64,000 nt of DNA from Sulfuriferula plumbiphila (GTDB lineage Bacteria > Pseudomonadota > Gammaproteobacteria > Burkholderiales > Sulfuriferulaceae), in assembly GCF_009938015.1 (NCBI RefSeq), contig NZ_AP021884.1:1413501-1477500 (forward strand), read 5' to 3'. Below are positions 4,002 to 27,257 of the stretch, piece after piece. The notes beneath the pieces were generated by a model, which did not search any database, was not told where the DNA came from, and saw only the letters and a list, made by a program, of their open reading frames with translations. Made by a program: the position numbers and the translations under genes. Positions within the stretch are counted from its first letter, which is position 1. Every line of letters starts with the position of its first letter.

Positions 4002-4562
4002 TTATTCGGCGGGCGCGTGGCGTTTGGGCTGCCAGCACACATCCGCCAGTCCGGCATGGCGGTTGAGTACGCGGCACAGGATGAACAGCAGATCGGACAG
4101 GCGGTTCAGGTATTGCACCGCCAGCGGCGATACCGGTTCATTGCGCGCCAGCGTCACTACACGGCGCTCGGCACGGCGGCACACGGTGCGCGCCACGTGG
4201 CACAGGGAAGCCGCGCGGGAGCCGGCCGGCAGGATGAATTCCTCAAGCGGCGGCAGGGCGGCGTTGTGGCGGGCTATGGCGGCATCCAGTGCGGCGAGGT
4301 GGTCCTCGGTGATGGTGGTATAGCCAGGGATGGAAAGCTCGCCGCCCAGGTCAAACAGACCGTGTTGCACCTCGCTGAGCAAATCACCGACAGCAGCGGG
4401 CAGATTCTCGGCCAGCACCACGCCGATCTGGCTGTTGAGTTCGTCCACGTCGCCCAGCGCTTCCACACGGGCAGCATCCTTGGACGTGCGAGAGCCGTCA
4501 CCCAGGCCGGTGCTGCCGTCATCACCGGTGCGGGTGGTGATTTTGGAGAGGCGGTATCCCAT
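4002..4562 (-). CDS. pduO: PduO-type cob(I)alamin adenosyltransferase
   Basis: A 186-residue protein of the PduO/MMAB type. It transfers adenosyl from ATP to cob(I)alamin (or a corrinoid precursor) to make coenzyme B12 in the cytoplasm. The N-terminal ATP-binding motif TRTGDDGSTGLGDGSR is near residues 10-25. The later helices carry the family segments ALGDVDELNSQIG, EEFILPAGS and RAERRVV near residue 135. Length and motif order match the family. It stands alone, between the propeller gene (tail to tail) and the divergent cytochrome genes. No corrinoid riboswitch was recognised in the 230 bases upstream. Confidence 0.88.
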   Translation of the reverse strand: MGYRLSKITTRTGDDGSTGLGDGSRTSKDAARVEALGDVDELNSQIGVVLAENLPAAVGDLLSEVQHGLFDLGGELSIPGYTTITEDHLAALDAAIARHNAALPPLEEFILPAGSRAASLCHVARTVCRRAERRVVTLARNEPVSPLAVQYLNRLSDLLFILCRVLNRHAGLADVCWQPKRHAPAE

Positions 4563-4792
4563 GTTTTCTCGGTCCGGTTGTGATGAGTGTGCGCCATGCT
4601 ACCGTTATGCGGATACGGGCGTCCAGCATGCAATTAACGTGATGTTGCCAGGCTGTCCCAGTGTGCATACAATGGCTTGGCTAAAAAAGCAAGACTAAGG
4701 TGTCCGCAGAGGCGTCATAAAATTAAAGCGGCCGAATATTACGAAGTCTGTATAGGCAGTCGCAGTTCACATCCATCAAGAGTGAGGAGAGC

Positions 4793-5113
4793 ATGAAAAC
4801 AAGTCTGTTATTCAGCCTGGTTGCGCTGAGCGTGTGTCTGGCACCCGTCGCCCATGCCGCCGGTGACCCGGTTGCCGGCAAAAACAAGAACTCCATGTGT
4901 ATCGGCTGCCACGGCATTGCCGGCTGGCGTACCGCTTATCCGACGGTATACAGCGTGCCGTATCTGGGTGGCCAACACGCCGACTACATCGTCGCCGCGC
5001 TCAAGGAATATAAAAGCGGAGAGCGCAGCTTCCCCACCATGCGGGCGATTGCGGCGAGCCTGTCGGACCAGGATATGGAAGATCTGGCCGCGTATTACTC
5101 AGAAGGCAAATAA
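4793..5113 (+). CDS. Small periplasmic cytochrome c (class I, c553/c4-like)
   Basis: A 106-residue protein with a signal peptide ending at AHA|AGDP. It has one haem c site, CIGCH, near residue 37, and a C-terminal methionine in TMRAIAASLSDQD that probably supplies the distal ligand. The conserved LGGQHADYIVAALKEYKSGERS segment marks it as a c553/c4-type soluble electron carrier in the periplasm. A good ribosome site (GAGGAG) precedes the ATG. It lies 20 bases before a second cytochrome with the same architecture. The pair looks like two separate halves of a dihaem cytochrome c4. The donor and acceptor are not evident from the window. Confidence 0.8.
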   Translation: MKTSLLFSLVALSVCLAPVAHAAGDPVAGKNKNSMCIGCHGIAGWRTAYPTVYSVPYLGGQHADYIVAALKEYKSGERSFPTMRAIAASLSDQDMEDLAAYYSEGK

Positions 5114-22805: not shown

Positions 22806-23495
22806 TTACTCCGCCGTGACAGTTGCGGGTTTGGCAGCCGGCTGTATGGATTGTTCCACCAGACGGATGCGTGCCTGGATAGCGGCGAGTGTAGCGGCGT
22901 CGCCTCCCTGCTTTTCCTGCAAGCCCAGATAGGTCAGCAGCGGACGCCGCCAGCCCTGCATTGAGGCGGTATCCACGGCGGCCTGCAACGTGGCGGCATC
23001 GAATTGGCCCCGCTTGACCATGATCCCGCTGGCGATGAGGCGTGAAACCGGGTCGTCAATCGCCGCGATGCTGCGATTGATATCGGCCTGGGGCCGGCTG
23101 GCTGCCCCCACCAGCCCGGCGTATTGCAGAGGGAGCAGTTTGGTTTCCATGCCTTGCCAGTCACCGCTGATAAAACGTGCATAAGCGCTATCGGCAGGCG
23201 TGGTGCGGAGGGCAGCGAGTTTGCTGTAGCCGGTGCACGGCGCAAAATCGAGTGCAGCGATGCGCAGTCCGCAGCGCACCAGTTCGATATGCCCGACCGC
23301 CGCCACGTCACCGGTTGCGGCCACGGCGGCACGCGCCCGGGCAAAGCTGGTGGCGGCGAGCTTCACATCGCCTGCGAGGTAGTGTTGCGTATAGCGTTCG
23401 ACTGCAGCTTTCGCCTGGTACTGCCAGTCGGGTGCAGACTGGCCTGCGCAGGCGCTGAGCAACAGGCTCAAAATCAGGATGAAGATGATCTTCAT
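22806..23495 (-). CDS. Lipoprotein of the MCE operon, unknown function
   Basis: A 229-residue protein with a lipobox (LSLLLSAC near residue 16), so it is probably anchored in the outer or inner membrane facing the periplasm. The mature part is nearly all helical and alanine-rich, with a TPR-like look (AAVERYTQHYLAGDVKLAAT). No family could be assigned. Its start overlaps the stop of the MCE protein gene (ATGA at 23492-23495), which ties it to the transport operon, where an outer-membrane or bridging partner would be expected. Confidence 0.65.
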   Translation of the reverse strand: MKIIFILILSLLLSACAGQSAPDWQYQAKAAVERYTQHYLAGDVKLAATSFARARAAVAATGDVAAVGHIELVRCGLRIAALDFAPCTGYSKLAALRTTPADSAYARFISGDWQGMETKLLPLQYAGLVGAASRPQADINRSIAAIDDPVSRLIASGIMVKRGQFDAATLQAAVDTASMQGWRRPLLTYLGLQEKQGGDAATLAAIQARIRLVEQSIQPAAKPATVTAE

Positions 23496-24442
23496 GGCAG
23501 CTTGACCTTGCCGGGTTCGGAGGAGGGCAGGATGCGGTTGATTTTGGTGATGAGCTGATTGGCCTTGCTCACCGCCTCGTCCACTTGCCCGCGCAGTTGT
23601 CCAAGGTCATCGGTGCCGTCCTTGAGATTGGCGGTCAGACCGTTGACGTTGGCCAGGATTGCGTCCAGTTTGTTCAGGCTCACGCGCAGGTCGCCCAGCA
23701 TGGCCTGAATTTGCGCCAGCGACTGGTCTGCCTTGTCGGCCATACCCCCCCGGGAAAATGCCCAGTGATCCATTTTTTGCGACAGGGCGTCGAGGTTGGC
23801 GGTCAGCTTGCGCGCATTGTTCAGTGCATCCATCAGCACCTGTGCATTCCGCTCGCTACCCAATAGTCCCTGGGCCATACCGTATTTGCCGGACATCCGG
23901 GTGGTAACGGTTTTGACGTTGACCAGCGCGGCATCGATTTCGCCATTCTTGCGCGTGATGTAAGCCACGTTTTTGCTCACCCCGGCCAGCTGATCGAGGA
24001 TGCCATTGACCTTGGCTGCCAGTGCCGGCACGTCCACCGCCGCACTGCCCATATCCAGCGGTACTGCGGCGCCATTGGCCAACGCCGGGCTACTCAAGTC
24101 GGTTAAATCCACGCGTATCCTGGCTGCGCCAACCAGTGGTCTTTCCACGGCAAACCGGCTGTTGCGGCGCAACCAGCGCCTCTCGCGGCCAGGCACGCTG
24201 ATTGTGATATGGACCAGGCCCTGATCGGTGAGCGCGACATTCGCCACCTGGCCTATGGCAATGCCGCGAAAGGTAAGCGGCGTGCCCACGCCGATACCTT
24301 CGGCGCTGGACGCGGCCAGGGTGTAATGCCAAGTACGTTCGAAATAACCGCGTGCGTAGAGCAGATAAACGAAAAATGTCGTAGTGACCAACACAGCGCT
24401 GATGACAAATAGTCCGACCTTGAATTGCATGGATTTATTCAT
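23492..24442 (-). CDS. MlaD-family MCE protein
   Basis: A 316-residue protein with one N-terminal membrane helix (FKVGLFVISAVLVTTTFFVY) and a single MCE domain with the hallmark GIGVGTPLTFRGIAIGQV near residues 45-65. A long helical tail with repeated NxLxxNLxxLxxK patterns (about residues 160-310) could form a coiled coil or needle across the periplasm. MCE proteins carry lipids between membranes with an MlaE permease and an MlaF ATPase. The start ATG at 24442 removes an unrelated in-frame extension. It overlaps the ATPase-like gene by eight bases. Confidence 0.85.
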   Translation of the reverse strand: MNKSMQFKVGLFVISAVLVTTTFFVYLLYARGYFERTWHYTLAASSAEGIGVGTPLTFRGIAIGQVANVALTDQGLVHITISVPGRERRWLRRNSRFAVERPLVGAARIRVDLTDLSSPALANGAAVPLDMGSAAVDVPALAAKVNGILDQLAGVSKNVAYITRKNGEIDAALVNVKTVTTRMSGKYGMAQGLLGSERNAQVLMDALNNARKLTANLDALSQKMDHWAFSRGGMADKADQSLAQIQAMLGDLRVSLNKLDAILANVNGLTANLKDGTDDLGQLRGQVDEAVSKANQLITKINRILPSSEPGKVKLP

Positions 24443-24965
24443 GGTGGGTTTCCATTTGAGGCATGGTTCCGTACAAGGCCTGATTCCAGGTATAGTCAAG
24501 TATCCGGTGCGCCGGGTATACGTCCGCCAGGCGCGCCAGCAAGGTGCCAAGCGCGTCCGGGTAGGGTACATCCGCAAGCAGCAGTGCCGGGCGGTCAATT
24601 ACCAGCAGCGGGCGCCGTAGCTGAATTGCGCGCGCCAGTTTCACCGCAAAGCGCTGGGTGGGCGTGAGGTCTTCATCGCGCTTCATGGCGATATCGCCAT
24701 GCCCGCAGCTATCGAGCAGGCGCTGTGCCCGCGCGCTGGCCTGGGTCCATGACATGGCCTGGTGAAACTGTTCGACCAGCGCAATGTTTTCCAGCGCAGT
24801 CAGGTTCACCCGCAACGGCAGCTCCGGCGACACCAGTGCGCAGGCGTCGCCCTGATCACCCAGTAGCGCCGCCAGGCGAATACGCCGTGCGGCCTCATCT
24901 GCGCACCAATCTATATGTATTTGAAAGCTAATGATGCAACCTCGATCAGAACAATGGCAAAAAAC
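24435..24965 (-). CDS. Degenerate ABC ATPase-like subunit of the MCE operon
   Basis: An open frame of up to 176 residues that aligns with the second half of MlaF-type ATPases but lacks every catalytic element. No Walker A occurs, and there is no room for one because the permease gene ends at 24911. The Q-loop position reads ALVSPE, the LSGG signature reads LTPTQ, Walker B reads LLVIDRP (no catalytic glutamate), and the H-loop position reads RILDYTW. The helical segment VKLARAIQLRRPLLVID is still recognisable. The start is uncertain. GTG at 24965 is the only ordinary codon before the conserved part; an ATT at 24932 behind GAGG is also possible. The intact frame suggests it is a functional pseudo-ATPase rather than debris. 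Confidence 0.6.
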   Translation of the reverse strand, partial: VFCHCSDRGCIISFQIHIDWCADEAARRIRLAALLGDQGDACALVSPELPLRVNLTALENIALVEQFHQAMSWTQASARAQRLLDSCGHGDIAMKRDEDLTPTQRFAVKLARAIQLRRPLLVIDRPALLLADVPYPDALGTLLARLADVYPAHRILDYTWNQALYGTMPQMETHHE

Positions 24966-25705
24966 ACCCGCATCATGCCCTTGAGTACGGCCACCGGCAC
25001 CAGGAACAGCCGCCGGGGAATTTCCAGCCCGGTTTTCAGCGGGATCAATGTCACGCACAGCCCGAACAGGGTGGTTTTGAGCACCAGCCAAAACATCAGC
25101 GGAAACGCCAAAAGCTGGCCGATGGCGCGCGCGTAAGCCGGGAAATTCACCGGGTGCAGGCCATAAATCACGAAAAACGCCACCCCCAGTGCCGTCAGTC
25201 CCGACAGGCCTGTCAGCGCGAGTACCGAGAGCACCCCACCCACCACGCGCGGCATGAATTCATAACGGATGGGGTCGATGCGCGCGTGCTCGAATGCCGC
25301 CAGCTCGTTGTTGACGTGCATCAGCGCGATTTCGGTGTTGATCGCCGCCCCCGAGCGCAGGGCCACAAACAGCACCGATAAAAACGGCAGCAACTCCATC
25401 ACCAGGAAACCCACAATCAGCCCCGGCACGTATTCCGACAAACCAAAATTGCGCGCCACCGTCACCATGATCCGGATAATCACCGCGCTGATGACCAGCG
25501 AATAGGCAATAAATATGGGCAGCGCCTGCACCGCCGTAAAATAAATCTGCTTGGTGATAATCCAGCGCGTGGCGCTGTCGTAAGTGCGCGGGTTGAGCAC
25601 CACTACCAGCAAGCGCCAGCCAAAATTTGCCAGCGCAGTGGCCGAGCGCAGGCGTGTAATCACGGCATTGCCGATGGTTTCGATCCAGGTGACCAGCATG
25701 TTCAT
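24911..25705 (-). CDS. MlaE-family ABC permease
   Basis: A 264-residue integral membrane protein of the MlaE/YrbE type, with about five to six helices. It has typical segments ALPIFIAYSLVISAVII, GLIVGFLVMELLPFLSVLFV, the cytoplasmic coupling region NELAAFEHARIDPIRYEFMP (an ExxALexxgIDP-like motif) and GLTALGVAFFVIYG. It would form the inner-membrane lipid channel with the MCE protein. The ATG at 25705 is used; a TTG two codons further out is less likely. It is first of four overlapping genes on the minus strand. Confidence 0.85.
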   Translation of the reverse strand: MNMLVTWIETIGNAVITRLRSATALANFGWRLLVVVLNPRTYDSATRWIITKQIYFTAVQALPIFIAYSLVISAVIIRIMVTVARNFGLSEYVPGLIVGFLVMELLPFLSVLFVALRSGAAINTEIALMHVNNELAAFEHARIDPIRYEFMPRVVGGVLSVLALTGLSGLTALGVAFFVIYGLHPVNFPAYARAIGQLLAFPLMFWLVLKTTLFGLCVTLIPLKTGLEIPRRLFLVPVAVLKGMMRVFFAIVLIEVASLAFKYI

Positions 25706-25740
25706 TGTCAAAAAAGCTTATCGGGCAGGACAAGTATGTG

Positions 25741-25768
25741 TTGCAAGGTTACCATGCGCAAGTACACT
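25741..25768 (+). promoter_or_regulatory. Candidate promoter of the SH3/M48/cyclase operon
   Basis: TTGCAA (25741-25746) and TACACT (25763-25768) are 16 bases apart and lie 36 bases before the start codon. The match to consensus is moderate. Confidence 0.35.
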
Positions 25769-25803
25769 GGTATGAGGTTAGAATGGTCTACCAAAAGGAG
25801 ATC

Positions 25804-26355
25804 ATGAAGATGAAAATCAGACGGGCAAAATGGTTATTGCTGGTGAGTGTGCTATGCACCTCGCTGGCAGCCGCGGCATCGGGTGGCGTGCTGATCAAGG
25901 ACGAAACCCTGTATGCCAAACCCGCAGCGCGCAGCGCGTCGGTTGGCAGGGTGGTGCGCGGCACCCCGGTAACGGTGGTGGCACGCCAGGGCGGCTGGCT
26001 GGAAGTGACAAGTGGCCGTACGCGCGGCTGGGTGCGCATGTTCTCGGTGCGCGGCAGCGTCGGTGGCGGCGGCAATACGGCGGCTGAACTGGCGGGTCTG
26101 GTGCAGGCGGGGCAGCGTCGGCCCGGTAATATTGTGGCCACGGCAGGTGTGCGCGGGCTCAACGAAGAAGACCTCAAGACTGCAAGATACAGCGAGCCTG
26201 GCATCCAGGATCTCGCGTCCTACTCGGTTTCTGCGGGAGCGGCGCGCCAGTTTGCCGGCAAAGCACGACTCAGTCGTCAAAACGTCGCCTATCTGCCCAA
26301 CCCGGCCGGATCTGGCGATGAAAACCGTAACAATGCCTGGGAGGTGCCGCAATGA
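25804..26355 (+). CDS. Exported SH3-domain protein
   Basis: A 183-residue protein with a signal peptide (WLLLVSVLCTSLAAAA) and one bacterial SH3 domain (about residues 28-85), with the pattern LYAKPAARSASVGRVVRGTPV and GWLEVTSGRTRGWVRMFSV. Such domains bind peptidoglycan or envelope proteins. The C-terminal ~95 residues are of low complexity and unassigned. ATG 25804 is preceded by AAAAGGAG at the right distance. The stop overlaps the M48 protease start (ATGA), so the two are translationally coupled and may form an envelope quality-control pair. Confidence 0.72.
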   Translation: MKMKIRRAKWLLLVSVLCTSLAAAASGGVLIKDETLYAKPAARSASVGRVVRGTPVTVVARQGGWLEVTSGRTRGWVRMFSVRGSVGGGGNTAAELAGLVQAGQRRPGNIVATAGVRGLNEEDLKTARYSEPGIQDLASYSVSAGAARQFAGKARLSRQNVAYLPNPAGSGDENRNNAWEVPQ

Positions 26356-27257
26356 AGAAATCCATTTTGATCATTGCGCTGGGCGCGGTATTTGCAAGCA
26401 GTGGTGCGTATGCGCTCAATCTGCAGGATATGTTGAAAGATGAGCTGCTCAAACAGATTGAGCCCAGGCAAGCTGAACCCCAGCAAACAGCCCCGAGTGA
26501 AACGGGCAACGCCCACGGCGCGCAGGACAATCCGGCCGCCACCGTTCTGGGTGCGTTCGCCAAGACCTCGACCGAAGACGAAATCCGCATCGGGCGCCAG
26601 ATTGCCGGTGATCTGCTGGGTGCGGCGCCGCTTGTGCCCGATGCCAGCCTGCAGCGCTATGTCAACCAGGTGGGGCGCTGGGTCGCGTTGCAGAGCGATC
26701 GTCCGGATCTGCCCTGGCATTTTGGCGTGATTGACACTACCGACATCAATGCGTTCGCCGCCCCCGGGGGCTACGTGTTTGTCACCCGGGGTTTGTATCA
26801 GAAGCTCAATAGCGAGGCTGAACTGGCCGGTGTGCTCGCGCATGAAATCAGCCATGTGGTGCACAAGGATCATCTCAAAATCCTGCAACAAACCAGGCTG
26901 CTCAACCTCGGTGCGCAATACCTTGGCAAACAGGCAAAGGGCCAGGATGCGGTACAGAAACTGATTGGTAGCGGTGCCGAAATCGTGGCGCGCGGACTCG
27001 ACAAGAATGCCGAGTTTGCCGCTGATCGCATGGGTGTGGTGCTTGCCGCACGCGCTGGTTACGATCCCTACGGCCTGCCCGCCGTGCTCGAAGAAATCGG
27101 TCACACTGCGCCGAACGACAGCCGCGTCGCGCTGTTGTTCAAGACACATCCGGCGCCGGCGGAACGCCTGTCCATGCTGGGGGAGGCGATTGGCACCCAC
27201 TTTGACAGCCTCGCCCCGGGGAAGGAGCTCAAAGATCGGTTCTACCGGATTCGTTAA
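26352..27257 (+). CDS. Exported M48-family zinc metalloprotease
   Basis: A 301-residue protein with a signal peptide ending near SGAYA|LNL. The zinc protease domain spans about residues 75-295: the metal motif HEISHVVH is near residue 167 and the third ligand is in EFAADRMGV near residue 226. The PGGYVFVTRGLY segment is typical of the BepA/LoiP-like periplasmic M48 group. TPR repeats of BepA are absent. It likely degrades misfolded envelope proteins. It overlaps the SH3 gene and lies nine bases before the cyclase gene. Confidence 0.85.
   Translation: MKKSILIIALGAVFASSGAYALNLQDMLKDELLKQIEPRQAEPQQTAPSETGNAHGAQDNPAATVLGAFAKTSTEDEIRIGRQIAGDLLGAAPLVPDASLQRYVNQVGRWVALQSDRPDLPWHFGVIDTTDINAFAAPGGYVFVTRGLYQKLNSEAELAGVLAHEISHVVHKDHLKILQQTRLLNLGAQYLGKQAKGQDAVQKLIGSGAEIVARGLDKNAEFAADRMGVVLAARAGYDPYGLPAVLEEIGHTAPNDSRVALLFKTHPAPAERLSMLGEAIGTHFDSLAPGKELKDRFYRIR

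Follow-up and report, generated by a model that had tools for sequence, protein, structure and literature searches.

The 64,000-nucleotide stretch analysed here (the window) is part of the complete 3.45-Mb genome of Sulfuriferula plumbiphila (contig NZ_AP021884.1, positions 1,413,501 to 1,477,500; labelled G000 in our comparisons) and carries an MCE lipid-transport operon with a degenerate ATPase gene. Four overlapping genes on the minus strand code for an MlaE-type permease, a truncated nucleotide-binding domain (NBD) of the ATP-binding cassette (ABC) type, an MCE protein and a lipoprotein. The second gene product, called psi for pseudo-ATPase, lacks the catalytic motifs of ABC ATPases and is conserved in 61 distinct loci. 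We favor the view, at a probability of roughly 60%, that permease and MCE protein constitute a bridge which works without cognate ATP hydrolysis and in which psi would be a structural clamp.

The motif names Walker A, LSGG, Walker B, Q-loop, D-loop and H-loop are used in their textbook sense. Psi of the window has no Walker A motif, LTPTQ replaces LSGG, LLVIDRP replaces the hhhhDEP of Walker B, and its segment LDYTWN is without histidine. After removal of exact duplicates 57 psi proteins were aligned. None of them contained a Walker A motif (GxxxxGK[ST]), an LSGG signature or a Walker B motif of the form hhhDE, and the column of the catalytic glutamate was arginine in all 57. The H-loop column, mapped by eye, was tyrosine in 46 and phenylalanine in 11 members, with a histidine three columns later in four. 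A preliminary description of this DNA, made from its letters, had reported an ATPase-like gene without catalytic motifs and had considered that its homologues might be full-length active ATPases. The alignment confirmed the loss of the motifs, and the relatives of psi were not such ATPases. By any motif tested psi is no functioning ABC ATPase. Invariant columns elsewhere in the alignment (PLR, NL, RF, RP and W) argue for a function other than catalysis.

The origin of psi was apparent from profile comparisons and from a structure model. Window psi matched ABC_tran (PF00005) with 15.4 bits, which is under the gathering cut-off of 25 bits, and 15 of the 57 members matched this family at an E-value of 0.1 or better. 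A profile of the 57 rows matched ABC ATPase chains of the PDB with a best E-value of 6e-9, and its alignment with both MlaF proteins encoded in the genome extended from about the Q-loop to the D-loop, with 10-12 bits. The AlphaFold model of psi was confident, with a pLDDT (predicted local distance difference test) of 91.3 and a predicted template-modelling score (pTM) of 0.87. Among the 50 matches listed by Foldseek the model found ABC NBDs with E-values of 6e-8 to 8e-6, a probability of 1.00 and template-modelling scores (query) of 0.55-0.68, and E. coli MlaF was one of these matches (6xgy_A, E 1.3e-6). As judged by profiles and predicted model, psi is derived from an ABC nucleotide-binding domain.

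A first search yielded strong psi homologues in 8 of 17 genomes of the same genus and in 3 of 43 from elsewhere in the order; a psi profile search then matched 32 of the 399 genomes examined for the order. Among named genomes a scan turned up 41 psi loci, including those of Sulfuriferula, Thiobacillus, Hydrogenophilus, Parasulfuritortus and Gallionellaceae. The total of 61 distinct loci, the window's included, consists of the 57 aligned ones, of L102, which escaped the motif pattern of the 57-row set, and of L180, L181 and L191, which stand outside that set. Because there are 60 further distinct homologous loci the psi frame is real and chance is ruled out. In the 398 genomes sampled across the phylum the profile matched 88, with scores of a true psi only in G000 and G059; the other matches reached at most 52 bits and resembled ordinary ABC ATPases by frame length. 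Psi was flanked by permease, MCE protein and lipoprotein in nearly all loci. The permease was not adjacent in L094, L098 and L099, and no lipoprotein match was seen at the psi loci L063, its duplicate L095, and L093.

Several loci had peculiarities of their own. In the metagenome-assembled genome of L046 the MCE gene is in two pieces (4133-5083), which could be an assembly error. In L182 (2177-8028), from the same genome G328 as L099, CusCBA-like resistance-nodulation-division efflux genes (named by eye) lie between permease and psi, and in G213 and G143 permease and psi are on different contigs.

The ratio of nonsynonymous to synonymous substitution rates (dN/dS) was calculated for psi with the first 15 codons left out. 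For the 30 closest pairs, with dS values of 0.09-0.43, it ranged from 0.08 to 0.50; these pairs are not independent, because they share loci, many of them involving six sequences of the Thiobacillus group. In these pairs the ratio of psi was above that of the permease in most cases and gave a mixed picture against the MCE gene. Over 549 pairs the median was 0.44 and the maximum 0.82, pairs past the closest 30 being nearer saturation. Window psi compared with that of S. multivorans had a dN of 0.205 and a dS of 0.868, i.e. a ratio of 0.24. These values indicate that psi is under purifying selection and not decaying, as the preliminary description had supposed from the open frame overlapping both neighbors (22 nt with the permease gene, counted from the ATT discussed below, and 8 nt with the MCE gene). 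A pseudogene in decay, for which the absence of every catalytic motif would speak, has a negligible chance of being the right explanation in view of open frames in 61 loci of several families, ratios below 1, invariant columns and a conserved start signal. Pseudogene and sequencing error alike were ruled out by the 60 further loci together with dN/dS.

In most loci the psi gene is in the -1 frame relative to the permease gene. In 45 of the 58 loci that have a permease upstream (43 of 54 in the main set plus L180 and L181), an ATT stands precisely 19 nt ahead of the permease stop codon. The other 13 (11 of the main set, L102 and L191) had an ATG at -5 to +25; no locus had neither. A GAGGT stood 5' of the ATT in 43/43 ATT loci of the main set. 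The permease codons that span the ATT were TCA in 42/43 and TTA or TTG in 43/43, while TCA makes up 3.3% of the serine and TTR 12% of the leucine codons in these permease genes; because the sequences are related, no formal probability was attached to this count. L180 and L181 have leucine in place of serine at this point of the permease and still have the ATT. Nine of 47 ATT loci, S. multivorans included, had no ATG, GTG or TTG between the upstream stop codon and codon 15 past the ATT, and six of the 47 had a stop codon four codons ahead of it. Many ATT loci have an open GTG or ATG further up, often by 41-53 codons, and in the window a GTG is located 42 codons upstream. The ATT is also found in L094 and L099, where psi is not preceded by a permease, but both loci offer other starts further up: a GTG in frame three codons upstream of the ATT in L094, and in L099 a TTG at a distance of 18 and an ATG at a distance of 54 codons. 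The ATT in these two loci lends weak support to an AUU start.

Other possibilities were considered. The codon overlapping the permease stop was CTG in 23, ATA in 7, GTG in 6, CTA in 4, GTA in 2 and ATG in 1 of 43 loci, and being so variable it cannot serve as a start for all. In six loci the stop codon four codons before the ATT precludes any start far upstream within the permease gene. Programmed -1 frameshifting out of the permease gene would account for the nine loci devoid of ATG, GTG and TTG, yet no slippery heptamer was seen by eye and 13/58 loci have an ATG instead of the ATT, so that a start codon fits better and a frameshift is the less likely reading. Thus psi probably starts at an AUU inside the permease gene in most lineages. 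For the window this alters part of the preliminary description. The psi gene was found where it had been placed, but its length of 176 residues did not hold: residue 1 would be a GTT codon at 24965, while the ATT at 24932 gives 165 residues. An ATT start is described for E. coli infC, the gene of initiation factor 3 (IF3), which is repressed by IF3 (PMC5472188). According to the same source, experimental characterisation is available for very few non-canonical start codons. Like infC, psi would use a non-canonical ATT; unlike infC, which is autoregulated by IF3, it is an unrelated gene and its ATT is inside an overlapping gene. Among the literature matches listed there was no description of an AUU start for such a gene.

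Besides the psi loci there is a second state of the system. A profile of 36 permeases (the short permease of L038 was excluded from permease alignments) found the permease in 65/399 genomes of the order at an E-value of 1e-35 or better, all 32 psi genomes among them. In the other 33 genomes permease, MCE protein and lipoprotein are consecutive with no ATPase gene in between. Relative to the permease stop, the MCE frame has its earliest start codon at -5 to +94 nt, and psi gave no match at the 33 loci at an E-value of 1e-3. Two MlaF queries (E 1e-6) detected an ABC ATPase in two of 40 fetched stretches, L184 and L156; L184 is a psi locus, and its ATPase is exporter-like by eye. A tree was built from 94 permease rows, with the window genome's two canonical MlaE proteins as root. 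In it the 33 psi-less loci formed one clade (SH-aLRT, the Shimodaira-Hasegawa-like approximate likelihood ratio test, 87) that was sister to the psi-carrying L049 (joint support 96). This clade was nested within psi-carrying lineages, and the psi-carrying G992 from another order branched first. A single change of state, the loss of psi, suffices on this tree.

The two states allowed a comparison of the permease surface. In E. coli MlaE, a cytoplasmic coupling helix between the transmembrane helices TM2 and TM3 is reported to contact MlaF (PMC7790496, PMC7784689). The corresponding segment contained 3.35 bits per column in permeases with psi and 2.34 in psi-less ones, whereas the remaining columns, two further segments set aside, contained 2.71 and 2.74 (31 and 32 sequences after redundancy removal). 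Glu129, Leu132, Met133 and Glu138 were invariant in 58/58 permeases with psi and were found in 16, 19, 13 and 10 of the 33 psi-less ones. Because the conservation of this segment is kept with psi and lost without it, psi probably sits on the NBD site of the permease, and nothing would be there after psi loss.

An ancestor of the psi system with an intact ATPase was not found by MCE-profile searches of 274 genomes of the class and 299 of the phylum, two samples that overlap. The searches returned one psi system in another order (G992), half-degenerate systems and, as the fifth match in the phylum, a short contig (G589) on which the MCE match alone was found. In the half-degenerate systems, the nearest MCE relatives, which occur in nine genomes of another class (L202-L205, L209, L212-L215), a full-length ATPase lies between permease and MCE protein, and a TPR lipoprotein is downstream in the four loci inspected. 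The motifs of these ATPases were judged by eye in all nine and also by pattern in four. Walker A is kept (e.g. GPAKSGKT and GADGSGKS), the Q-loop glutamine is replaced by glutamate or aspartate, LSGG by LTIE-like sequences and the catalytic glutamate by asparagine, once by histidine; no H-loop histidine was seen by eye. By these motifs they look like an intermediate. Between the lipoprotein of the psi operon and this TPR lipoprotein hhalign aligned 26 columns only, at the signal peptide, so that no homology is claimed.

The preliminary description had offered two alternatives, namely that another ATPase drives the permease or that the system works without ATP hydrolysis. The second is the one we favor, on comparative evidence; the first was weakened. 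It would have an MlaF-type ATPase encoded elsewhere drive the permease, with psi as an adaptor, a place-holder or one half of a mixed dimer, and we regard it as unlikely. There is a precedent in mycobacteria, where MceG is reported to serve both Mce1 and Mce4 (PMC9947336), and the coupling-helix motif is kept in the permeases with psi. The window genome codes for three MlaE proteins, three MCE proteins and two intact MlaF-class ATPases (the next ABC ATPase followed at an E-value of 2e-31). Both MlaF genes, however, adjoin an MlaE of their own, and the orphan MlaF for which the preliminary description proposed a search was not found in this genome. Moreover, a dimer of MlaF and psi would be without a complete ATP site given the geometry of such dimers, psi having neither Walker A nor signature. 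The loss of coupling-helix conservation in the 33 psi-less permeases would also be unexpected with an ATPase bound at this site. Lipid could conceivably pass without a motor, since its transfer from MlaD to MlaC is reported to be ATP-independent in vitro, hydrolysis even being reported to suppress it (PMC10212509).

Two further explanations leave psi an active role. As a regulator it would block the NBD site, compete with MlaF for MlaE-type permeases and so tune another, ATP-driven Mla system. It retains part of an NBD, and translation from AUU would hold its level low. Yet psi occurs only in genomes with this permease (32/32), nearly always adjacent to it, and the contact surface of the permease diverges on psi loss, suggesting that psi has its partner in this permease; a regulatory role is quite improbable. 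That psi is an active unconventional ATPase or a nucleotide sensor working through other residues appears very improbable indeed: the many invariant residues imply that it does something specific, but the P-loop is missing from every aligned member and the general base is uniformly arginine.

Several observations weigh against a bridge without cognate ATP hydrolysis. ATP-independence is concluded from an absence in the sequences, and the two intact MlaF-class ATPases could act in trans. One of the 33 psi-less loci, L156, has an intact ABC ATPase of the nitrate/taurine type (by eye) directly upstream of the permease on the same strand, and this exception is not explained away. Pro156 is retained in 33/33 and Arg157 in 25/33 psi-less permeases, which are also more diverse overall (mean identity 0.43 vs 0.52). 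Circular shifts reached the difference of the coupling segment in 7/267 cases (4/267 at a stricter cut), so the difference is suggestive and not overwhelming. The two set-aside permease segments, which were chosen after the profile had been seen, lose information in psi-less permeases likewise (3.41 to 1.90 and 3.59 to 2.34); on the E. coli topology, if it applies here, both would face the cytoplasm. The tree came from a quick search and was rooted on two long canonical branches, and its support for the psi-less clade is the 87 given above. Finally, the half-degenerate systems may be a case of parallel decay, because their clear kinship is restricted to the MCE protein: it scored 88-101 bits against 13-36 for the other MCE proteins of the window genome, while the permease scored 55-71 against 56-78 and the NBD 12-21 against 11-12 for the canonical copies of that genome.

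Permease and MCE protein are ordinary members of their families, so that the operon is a known kind of system in a new variant form. With Mla (MlaFEDB of E. coli) it shares an MlaE-family permease, an MCE protein and the ABC-type organisation (PMC7790496). MlaF is described as catalytically active and has Walker A, LSGG and, as catalytic residue, Glu170 (PMC7784689), none of which psi has, and MlaB and MlaC have no match in the operon. The Mla-Pqi chimera Mpc of Hyphomicrobiales likewise consists of four genes, for permease, ATPase, a long MCE protein and a lipoprotein, and has been proposed to span the periplasm (PMC12436622). It is, however, presented as an ABC transporter with an ATPase, MpcF, called well conserved, a PqiC-like lipoprotein and a STAS domain in the permease (PMC12436622); by Pfam the window operon has neither a PqiC-type nor a STAS domain. 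Pqi and Let are MCE systems with an inner-membrane protein that has no ATPase domain (PMC12436622), and they use PqiA or LetA together with proteins of several MCE domains, whereas the window operon uses an MlaE ABC permease. In the matches listed from mainly open-access literature on MCE systems, degenerate ABC domains and ATP-independence, preprints being outside, such a psi-type MCE system was not described; within that scope the earlier suggestion of an undescribed class of MCE system is fair. Degenerate NBDs with damaged motifs are also retained in heterodimeric ABC transporters. There they are paired with an active partner NBD, while the window operon encodes none and psi is, in addition, without the ATP-binding part.

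The features of the operon are listed in the table. Permease, MCE protein and lipoprotein were found intact where the preliminary description had placed them, two of them passing their Pfam cut-offs. The permease matched MlaE only in Pfam, and no PqiA-type inner-membrane protein was present. The MCE protein has a single MCE domain close to the N-terminus, followed by a long C-terminal part. No STAS or MlaC match was obtained by Pfam among the four overlapping genes, the flanking frames being judged by eye. The lipoprotein had no PDB match at an E-value of 0.001 or better, and none of 48 members of its family matched the PqiC-like family (DUF330) of Pfam at an E-value of 0.1.

Features of the psi operon in the window
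Feature	Position	Strand	Remarks
Permease, MlaE-type, 264 residues	24911..25705	-	Pfam PF02405, 134 bits (cut-off 22.5); coupling-helix segment LRSGAAINTEIALMHVNNELAAFEHARIDPIRYEFMPR kept
GAGGT, Shine-Dalgarno-like, 5' of the psi ATT	24939..24943	-	also encodes Glu-Val of the permease; 7 nt from GAGG to ATT
ATT (AUU), putative non-canonical start of psi	24930..24932	-	permease stop codon 19 nt downstream
Psi (pseudo-ATPase), 165 residues from the ATT	24435..24932	-	truncated NBD without catalytic motifs; 61 distinct loci; AlphaFold; Foldseek
MCE protein, 316 residues	23492..24442	-	Pfam PF02470 (MlaD), 39.2 bits (cut-off 25.1); family alignments
Lipoprotein, 229 residues	22806..23495	-	lipobox LLSAC (by eye); predicted all-helical; no Pfam family

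Adjoining the permease gene at 25705-27257 on the plus strand are divergent genes whose products were named, by eye, an SH3-domain protein and an M48 metallopeptidase. Matches to these neighbors were found in 29/48 stretches with psi and 0/33 psi-less stretches, a count in which the flanks of the former are often cut and some stretches come from the same genome.

For the bridge without cognate ATP hydrolysis we propose the following mechanism. Permease, MCE protein and envelope lipoprotein would form a trans-envelope bridge for lipids, the ABC motor being retired. Of the ATPase subunit there would remain a pseudo-domain of some 150-190 residues that keeps the part from Q-loop to D-loop and has lost the preceding ATP-binding part. 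This domain would dock at the coupling helices on the cytoplasmic face of the permease and serve as a clamp or gate, not as a motor. Lipid movement would be independent of cognate ATP hydrolysis and be driven by gradients, by affinity or by removal of lipid at the far end. One clade would later have lost psi, whereupon the permease surface contacting it drifted. In most lineages psi would be translated from an AUU within the permease gene.

The energy need of MCE bridges is unsettled, with an ATPase in Mla and inner-membrane proteins without an ATPase domain in Pqi and Let (PMC12436622). The same permease with a truncated pseudo-NBD or with no NBD gene offers a natural series in which the energy question is directly testable in environmental bacteria. 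We put forward, tentatively and at somewhat less than even odds, the wider picture of an ABC lineage that gave up hydrolysis and preserved the steps (Walker A only, a pseudo-NBD clamp, no NBD), with an AUU-started psi whose dose may answer to IF3. The ATT start candidate appears fixed across several families and is of interest by itself, and the operon would provide an uncommon example of an ABC-type permease retained without its motor.

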